A stretch of 12,848 nt of DNA from a bacterium. Lineage in GTDB: Bacteria; JAMCPX01. The notes under the pieces are model-generated. The model did no database searches. It saw nothing but the letters and a program-made list of their open reading frames with translations, and had not been told where the DNA came from. The stretch is taken from contig JAJYUJ010000052.1 in assembly GCA_021792615.1 (NCBI GenBank), positions 1 to 12,848 on the forward strand, read 5' to 3'. The position numbers and the translations under genes were made by a program. Shown in pieces: positions 10,102-11,366 of this stretch. The first letter of the stretch is position 1, and every line of letters begins with the position of its first letter.

Positions 10102-10560
10102 ATGACACCCTTTGATAAATGGCTTGCGGTTGTTCTTACCACGTTGAACCCTCTCACCGGCAGGGGCGTGGCGATCCCGCTCGGCATAGAGTTCGGCCTG
10201 CCCATAGTTCTCGTATCTCTTGTGTCCGGTGTGACCAACTTCATCCTTGCAGTCGCGCTGGTTCTGTTTGTAGACCGGTTCGGGCATATTCCGTGGATGA
10301 GAAAGTATATAGACAGGAAACGCGGCCACAAAGTAACGCAGTTTATACAGGGGAAAGGGCTTCTCTATTCTGTGGTGTTGGGACCTTTTATCCTTGGTAC
10401 GTTTGCGGTTGTGCTCGTGTTTCAGGCGCTCGGCGCCGACAGGAAGCGCATGGTACTGTACAGCCTCCTCAGTGCCATCATCGTGACCCCGGTACTGGCA
10501 TGGATCTCACCGCTCTTTGTGGACATATTGAATCAATATAAAAGGATGCTGCATTTTTAA
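10102..10560 (+). CDS. Small membrane protein, Sm_multidrug_ex/COG2426-like
   Basis: This 152-residue protein has about four hydrophobic segments (approximately 6-24, 27-57, 86-112 and 119-140). RGVAIPLGIEFGLP with a following long helix, then GLLYSVVLGPFILGTFAVVLVFQALGADRKR, resembles the PF06695 'small multidrug export' family. That name is historical and transport has not been well shown. Gly-Pro and Gly-Thr in the second half are typical. It closes the LPS operon, 17 nt after the last GT9, with GGAAG 8 nt before the ATG. A role in envelope lipid or glycan handling would suit the location but is only inferred. Confidence 0.7.
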   Translation: MTPFDKWLAVVLTTLNPLTGRGVAIPLGIEFGLPIVLVSLVSGVTNFILAVALVLFVDRFGHIPWMRKYIDRKRGHKVTQFIQGKGLLYSVVLGPFILGTFAVVLVFQALGADRKRMVLYSLLSAIIVTPVLAWISPLFVDILNQYKRMLHF

Positions 10561-10571
10561 ACCCGGCAGAG

Positions 10572-10598
10572 GCCGTTTCAGGTTAACCCGAAAAAGGC
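10572..10598 (+). terminator. Imperfect hairpin after the LPS operon
   Basis: The sequence around the palindrome GGTTAACC (10581-10588) can fold as GCC-TTTC-GG, loop TTAA, CC-GAAA-GGC, with small bulges. It starts 12 nt after the operon's last stop. There is no clear U-run afterwards, so it may be a weak terminator or an mRNA 3'-stabilising hairpin. It overlaps the left arm of the inverted repeat. Confidence 0.3.
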
Positions 10599-10620
10599 GA
10601 TTGTAAAATAAGGAGGTTTA
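10583..10620 (+). repeat. Left arm of a long imperfect inverted repeat
   Basis: The arm consists of TTAACCCGAAAAAGGC (10583-10598), an extra 8 nt, and AATAAGGAGGTTTA (10607-10620). The inner 14 bp are an exact reverse complement of 10780-10793, and the outer 16 bp match 10794-10809 at 14 positions. The inner part contains the AGGAGG box that precedes a 25-codon ORF. Confidence 0.85.
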
Positions 10621-10624
10621 TGCA

Positions 10625-10702
10625 ATGAGCGATAAGCCCGCGTCAGACAAAGGTATTCTTCGAAAATCCGATGAGGAAACCATACGGGGTAATTGCATAT
10701 AA
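10625..10702 (+). CDS. Possible 25-residue small ORF inside the inverted-repeat segment
   Basis: The ORF is ATG AGC GAT AAG ... ATA TAA and encodes MSDKPASDKGILRKSDEE followed by seven more residues. It is charged and without a membrane segment. It has one of the best ribosome sites in the window, AGGAGG (10611-10616) 8 nt before the ATG, but that box is part of the repeat arm. It could be a real small protein, a leader peptide, or the truncated start of a lost gene. No family is recognised. Confidence 0.25.
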   Translation: MSDKPASDKGILRKSDEETIRGNCI

Positions 10703-10719
10703 ACATACAGAGGACTAAA

Positions 10720-10748
10720 ATCTCGTTTCTATAAGGAAACGTAGAGAT
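10720..10748. other. Hairpin within the inverted-repeat segment
   Basis: ATCT plus CGTTTC (10720-10729) pairs with GAAACG (10736-10741) and AGAT (10745-10748), with a 6-nt loop and a 3-nt bulge. No U-run follows, so it is not a classical terminator. It lies in the centre of the segment enclosed by the two repeat arms. Confidence 0.4.
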
Positions 10749-10779
10749 ATCAGGAGGATCGCGGGATTGAGCGAATAAT

Positions 10780-10809
10780 TAAACCTCCTTATTGCATTTT
10801 TCAGGTTAA
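10780..10809 (-). repeat. Right arm of the long imperfect inverted repeat, including the gmk stop codon
   Basis: Read on the - strand, this is TTAACCTGAAAAATGC then AATAAGGAGGTTTA. The gmk stop TAA (10808-10806) lies at its outer end. On the - strand an AAGGAGG box follows the stop by 15 nt, as if another gene once followed, but only ATT ATT CGC comes after it and no coding region is seen. Confidence 0.85.
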
Positions 10810-11366
10810 GAGGATTTTGCCTTGTCTATGATTTCTTCTATAGAGGCTATGACCCTGTCCAGCGTGTCGTTGATGACGATATAGTCATACCGCTGCGCTT
10901 GCTTCATCTCCCGCGCCACCCGTTCCAACCGCAGGACGAGCCGGTCTTTTTCACCCCGCGCCTCTAACCTTTCCTTGAGCGTATCGAGCGACGGCGGTTT
11001 GATGAATATGGACACGGCTTCCGGATAAAGGGATTTGATCGATGCGGCACCTTTTATATCGATATCGATGACCGCATGGTTGCCTGTTTGTGTGATTGCA
11101 TTGATCCCGGCCTTCGGCGTTCCGTACCGGTACCCGTTTATTTCAGCCCATTCTGCAAGCTGGTTATCCTCGATGAGCCGTGTGAATGCCGGCTCATCGA
11201 CAAAGAAATGATCCACGCCGTCCCGCTCTTCAGGCCTCTTTGCCCGCGTTGTGTACGTTATACACTGTTTGAGCAGCGGCACCTCATTGACGAGCCGGTG
11301 GATGATGGTCGTCTTGCCGGCGCCCGAAGGACCGGATATGATAATGATCAGTCCTTTCTTATCCAT
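10806..11366 (-). CDS. gmk: Guanylate kinase
   Basis: This 186-residue cytosolic enzyme phosphorylates GMP to GDP with ATP in purine nucleotide supply. It has a P-loop GPSGAGKT at residues 12-19. The GMP-binding region has TTRAKRPEERDGVDHFFV, and AEINGYRYGTP and DIDIKGAASIK are typical family blocks. RLVLRLERVAREM forms the lid region and YDYIVINDTLD lies near the C-terminus. The ATG at 11366 is preferred: it lies 10 nt after the yicC stop, with GGAG overlapping that stop. A TTG at 11396 would add ten residues overlapping yicC. The gene order yicC-gmk is common. rpoZ, often next, is absent here. Confidence 0.95.
   Translation of the reverse strand: MDKKGLIIIISGPSGAGKTTIIHRLVNEVPLLKQCITYTTRAKRPEERDGVDHFFVDEPAFTRLIEDNQLAEWAEINGYRYGTPKAGINAITQTGNHAVIDIDIKGAASIKSLYPEAVSIFIKPPSLDTLKERLEARGEKDRLVLRLERVAREMKQAQRYDYIVINDTLDRVIASIEEIIDKAKSS

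Follow-up and report, generated by a model that had tools for sequence, protein, structure and literature searches.

What is the long inverted repeat that ends at the gmk stop codon in this bacterial contig, and how did it come to lie there? A sequence-only reading of the window (the whole 12,848-nucleotide stretch of contig JAJYUJ010000052.1 that was analysed) left three options: an inverted duplication of the gmk 3' region, a small MITE-like mobile element, or a structured RNA. The second was right, as dispersed copies with precise ends and 4-bp duplications demonstrate. The feature is very probably one copy of a non-autonomous MITE of about 219 bp which, judging from sequence comparison, would have been mobilised in trans by a DDE transposase of the IS1380 family.

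A repeat search over 601 bp found the exact arms where they had been reported, at 10607-10620 and 10780-10793; they are 14 nt long, 100% complementary, and separated by 159 nt, and the search yielded no further inverted pair. By our estimate some 7e-4 such pairs would be expected there by chance. Outward of the exact arms, TTAACCCGAAAAAGGC (10583-10598) faces GCATTTTTCAGGTTAA (10794-10809) with 14 of 16 positions paired, and the eight nucleotides of GATTGTAA (10599-10606) are unpaired and found on the left side alone, again as first described. The gmk stop codon, TTA on the plus strand at 10806-10808, was correctly placed within the right end. The interval 10583-10809 comprises exactly one element with the two 4-bp copies of its duplicated target, that is, a core of 219 bp, or 227 bp with both TTAA copies (Table 1).

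Table 1. Features of the element at gmk, in window coordinates.
Feature	Position	Strand	Basis
Target-site duplication TTAA, left copy	10583-10586	.	Identical flanking 4-mers in 51 of 74 two-ended copies
Left arm	10587-10620	+	Repeat search and alignment of copies
Left terminal inverted repeat CCCGAAAAAGGC	10587-10598	+	Part of left arm
One-sided 8 nt	10599-10606	+	Part of left arm
Inner left arm AATAAGGAGGTTTA	10607-10620	+	Part of left arm
25-codon frame behind Shine-Dalgarno-like AAGGAGG, probably not a gene	10625-10702	+	Frame survey, substitution test
Inner covarying stem, left side	10638-10644	+	Helix 4 of covariation analysis
TAAA, empty here; holds nested 94-bp second element in other copies	10700-10703	.	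Alignment of copies
Small internal hairpin with weak terminator-like tail on minus strand	10724-10741	-	Terminator inspection
Inner covarying stem, right side	10757-10764	+	Helix 4 of covariation analysis
Right arm, whole TAAACCTCCTTATTGCATTTTTCAGG	10780-10805	-	Repeat search and alignment of copies
Inner right arm TAAACCTCCTTATT	10780-10793	-	Part of right arm
Right terminal inverted repeat GCATTTTTCAGG	10794-10805	-	Part of right arm
Target-site duplication TTAA, right copy; holds gmk stop codon (10806-10808, minus strand)	10806-10809	.	

BLAST searches for second copies, which the sequence-only reading had proposed for the source genome and its relatives, found them in number. With 10560-10820 as query, the genome of the window itself yielded 53 pieces, about 30 of them whole copies and the rest halves or copies split by further insertion. 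Matches occurred in all nine genomes examined of the lineage, and extending the search to the phylum added no further genome. Aligned copies have sharp common ends and unrelated flanks. The family has the makeup of a MITE: terminal inverted repeats of the type CCCGAAAAATGC at both ends, a core of 219 bp (MITEs being under about 600 bp) dispersed in about 30 whole copies, and no transposase gene within the element, whose longest frame is 58 codons and in which no IS1380 homologue was found. A 25-base pattern, scanned against 84,980 named species genomes from which records of the window's own genome were possibly left out, matched five unclassified MAGs (WY2.bin9, FK_Sedi_A_Bin.102, DBS2-1.bin173, FK4.bin6, and clean1809); it matched none of the viral contigs scanned. 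Very short derivatives of 52-87 bp, nearly perfect hairpins with little beyond the two arms, also occur (L115:554-605, L120:1031-1083, and L109:565-651).

Two pairs of elements, each pair divided between genera and lying at unrelated sites, are nearly identical (L008 and L088, 97%; L097 and L099, 95%); the gmk protein of one such genome, G007, is 54% identical to that of the window. These similarities indicate that elements moved later or were exchanged across genera, with the caveat of mis-binned contigs. Over 1.2 kb, which includes an element copy with its flanking sequence, 96% identity was seen between L054 (on the 3,008-bp contig C16 of the window's genome) and L080 (G007), which would reflect recent exchange between two genera or a mis-binned contig.

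Identical 4-mers flank 51 of the 74 two-ended copies. In 37 of these the duplicated sequence is TTAA; the other 14 (TCAA, TTCA, TGAA, TTTA, TAAA, ATAA, TAAC, and CTCA) are mostly one base off TTAA. Where TTAA is found on neither side, 14 of 23 copies still have identical flanks, compared with 2.4 expected when the sides are re-paired and a maximum of 8 in 10,000 shuffles. A perfect duplication is missing in 23 of the 74 copies, which we attribute to age. The earlier statement that no obvious target-site duplication flanks the arms was wrong, since the TTAA copies at 10583-10586 and 10806-10809 are the outermost 4 bp of what had been counted as arms; they were overlooked because TTAA is palindromic and reads as arm tips.

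A base-exact empty site accompanies these duplications. In the window's own genome, the L061 copy splits a different repeat at GGCGAACTATGCGA-TTAA-CATGTTC, and the uninterrupted forms of that repeat, ACTATACGATTAACATGTTCC in L008 of the same genome and GCTTTGTGATTAACATATTCC in L131 of G004, have a single TTAA each. This further repeat is itself dispersed and intergenic in the same genomes, carries the terminator-like hairpin GAAGAAGCCACGCTGTTTACAGCGTGGCTTCTTC (L061:480-502 and 827-875, L008:2610-2725, L131:310-445, and L066:660-770), and is both target and passenger of these elements. At gmk, the copy is common to the window and G003 (98% identity). G004 has the same convergent gene pair with the genes abutting and the element absent, and G001 and G002 have another gene between the two convergent genes; none of these three genomes offers a base-exact empty site at gmk itself. 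Relatives that keep gmk with unrelated sequence here had been named, along with a lack of second copies and of covariation, as grounds for reducing the repeat to a local accident. Such relatives do exist in G001, G002, and G004, but absence of this kind is what a mobile element predicts.

The TTAA target and the CCC ends suggested an IS1380- or piggyBac-like transposase, and we therefore searched for one. In G006, from a sister genus, a 1,620-bp element (L135:1089-2708) lies between TTAA on both sides and has perfect 16-bp ends, CCCGAAAAATGCATTT, that are the same as the MITE ends, as is expected of an autonomous counterpart. Its split transposase occupies two overlapping frames, one of 87 aa and the other of 388 aa. 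NCBIfam IS1380 model NF033539 finds the 388-aa frame with an E-value of 3.7e-49 and the 87-aa frame with 2.7e-5, each frame alone scoring below the curated cut-off of 180 bits, and PF13701 finds the 388-aa frame above cut-off (6.9e-23); by these profile matches the predicted transposase classifies as a member of the IS1380 family. In G007 the last 161 residues of the transposase are left (79% identical), together with the same right end, and in G008 there are transposase fragments. A search of the window's genus gave no match to an L135-type transposase. One remote IS1380 remnant (C18:61426, 25 bits) is present in the window's own genome; its ends do not match, and it was rejected as partner. 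Because no closely related transposase is found there, the copies in that genome are probably orphans, now immobile.

We propose that an IS1380-family transposase would recognise ends of the type CCCGAAAAATGC and insert at TTAA-like sites, with duplication of 4 bp, and that an L135-type transposase would have moved these copies by cut-and-paste. On this reading the copy described here inserted between two convergent genes, at the TTAA in which the gmk stop codon lies, and so left both coding sequences intact. The link between MITE and transposase rests on the shared ends and target, from which we infer activity. Against the pairing stand the location of the sole whole partner in another genus, the division of its transposase over two frames, and the negative search for a related transposase in the window's genus.

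Covariation across relatives, a check proposed at the outset, was found. Among 24 diverse copies, 96.2% of cells pair, and in 13 of 44 pairs both partners have changed, compared with 6.5 in shuffles. The covariation score is 0.189, versus 0.115 for shuffles and 0.024-0.078 for slid controls, and the signal includes the inner stem, which lies beyond the terminal repeat, to its inside. The two strands fold more stably than shuffled sequence, with z-scores of -4.6 and -6.1. The structured RNA option thus stands as far as covarying arms and folding go, but a search of the window with Rfam covariance models at gathering score returned no family. Whatever its mobile origin, the element could have been retained for a function as a structured RNA or as a bidirectional 3'-end element, acting in mRNA end protection or in termination between convergent genes. 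We regard such a retained role as unlikely. A stop-to-stop ORF survey with 500-bp flanks places 14 of 30 copies between convergent genes, but this is a raw count rather than an enrichment. The element contains no strong terminator, its absence at gmk in the three relatives named above argues against such a role, and the covariation itself can arise from arm-to-arm copying or from the need of a transposase for matched ends.

An insertion of about 22 bp that contains GGGGTACCC is found in the left arm of L056, L058, L068, and L141, and is mirrored in the right arm of G008 copies (L159, L162-L164), L098, and L145, which from the sequences we read as if it had been copied from arm to arm. Selection for the hairpin is one reading of the covarying arms. 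Another, suggested by the mirrored placement of this insertion in the two arms, is that sequence was copied from one arm to the other within an extruded hairpin.

It is far less probable that the element is a small mobile gene, spreading a peptide encoded by the left-arm frame. The left arm does contain AAGGAGG, followed by ATGAGCGAT, with this Shine-Dalgarno-like motif 8-9 nt before the ATG, and the frame, 25 codons long in the window, extends across the element to 50-58 codons in many copies from G008 and in some from G005. However, synonymous changes outside the arms are not in excess (31 against 34.7 expected in G008, 10 against 10.7 in G005), and on that account we do not regard the frame as a gene. 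The frame is also interrupted in many copies from G005 as well as in the window's genus, and gave no confident match in Pfam or NCBIfam. As for a local inverted duplication of the gmk 3' region, the contact of the right arm with the gmk stop codon invites it, but the presence of the same 227 bp at dozens of loci unrelated to gmk excludes it, and G004 has gmk facing the same convergent gene without any intervening repeat.

In the stop-to-stop ORF survey, the stop codon of a neighbouring frame falls inside the duplication or within one base of it in about one third of copies, gmk here among them. The gene context of the MITE copies can be accounted for by purging of in-gene insertions, together with the fact that TTAA itself contains a stop codon. 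At L121:485-1635, two element ends with TTAA on both sides surround a gene for an NAD-dependent epimerase, a would-be cassette of 1,151 bp. Gene capture was rejected for this locus: the upstream neighbours of the epimerase match those in G001 and G002, which means that the gene still sits at its original site and did not travel.

A second inverted-repeat element is nested at one TAAA in 10 of 30 aligned copies. It is 94 bp long (about 200 bp in two copies), has ends CCCCGTTAGAAA and TAAA flanks, and its carriers in the window's own genome are L061, L063, L065-L069, and L071-L073. Mapped on the tree of the outer element, the nested state takes 9 changes; well-supported branches require at least 3 of these, and grouping all its carriers in a single clade is rejected (p-AU 1e-7). 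Empty copies all read TATAAAC, with no scar. This scattered distribution could have arisen through excision that leaves no footprint, through several insertions at one and the same site, or through gene conversion among copies.

Among known systems, the sister-genus element L135 is an IS1380-family insertion sequence by its NCBIfam and Pfam matches and shares the 16-bp ends and TTAA flanks, whereas the element in the window, at 219 bp against 1,620 bp, lacks a transposase gene. Prokaryotic MITEs such as Chunjie (Geobacter uraniireducens, 235 bp) are alike in size, inverted ends, target duplication, tens of copies, mostly intergenic location, and lack of a transposase, and small frames inside them are common (PMC10969869). 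The window element differs from MITEs of the Chunjie type in sequence, in its tie to the IS1380 family, and in its TTAA-like 4-bp target; the text of that review mentions neither IS1380 nor TTAA. REP and BIME palindromes are likewise dispersed, palindromic, and intergenic, and REPs are linked to REP-associated tyrosine transposases (PMC2817692). Unlike these palindromes, the window element has target duplications, and its ends are common with a DDE-type element. This MITE family of IS1380 type is new as a family and ordinary in kind; a literature search confined to open-licence papers, which is weak evidence of novelty, found no paper on an IS1380-derived MITE.

From what is generally known of these families, the element has in common with the piggyBac elements of eukaryotes the TTAA target, the 4-bp duplication, and ends that start with CCC. 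It differs in its bacterial host and in a target that is not strictly TTAA: 37 of the 51 perfect duplications are TTAA and 14 are other 4-mers. IS1380 has been described as a distant prokaryotic relative of piggyBac, with CCC/GGG as the usual first bases of the terminal inverted repeats (PMC10140906). A bolder proposal would make these elements a bacterial counterpart of piggyBac, in which excision by an IS1380-type transposase leaves no footprint, so that one MITE can insert into another and later leave it intact, and the arms are kept throughout an uncultured phylum as structured 3'-end elements; we think this a long shot.

The IS1380 reading of the MITE family accounts for the puzzling palindrome at gmk and for dozens of similar ones. 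It describes a bacterial MITE family with an IS1380 parent identified by sequence and a TTAA-like 4-bp target, present in every examined genome of an uncultured lineage. Its points of interest are the TTAA/CCC hallmark in common with piggyBac and the scattered nested second element, and it enables a direct test of whether IS1380 transposases share the TTAA chemistry and clean excision of piggyBac.
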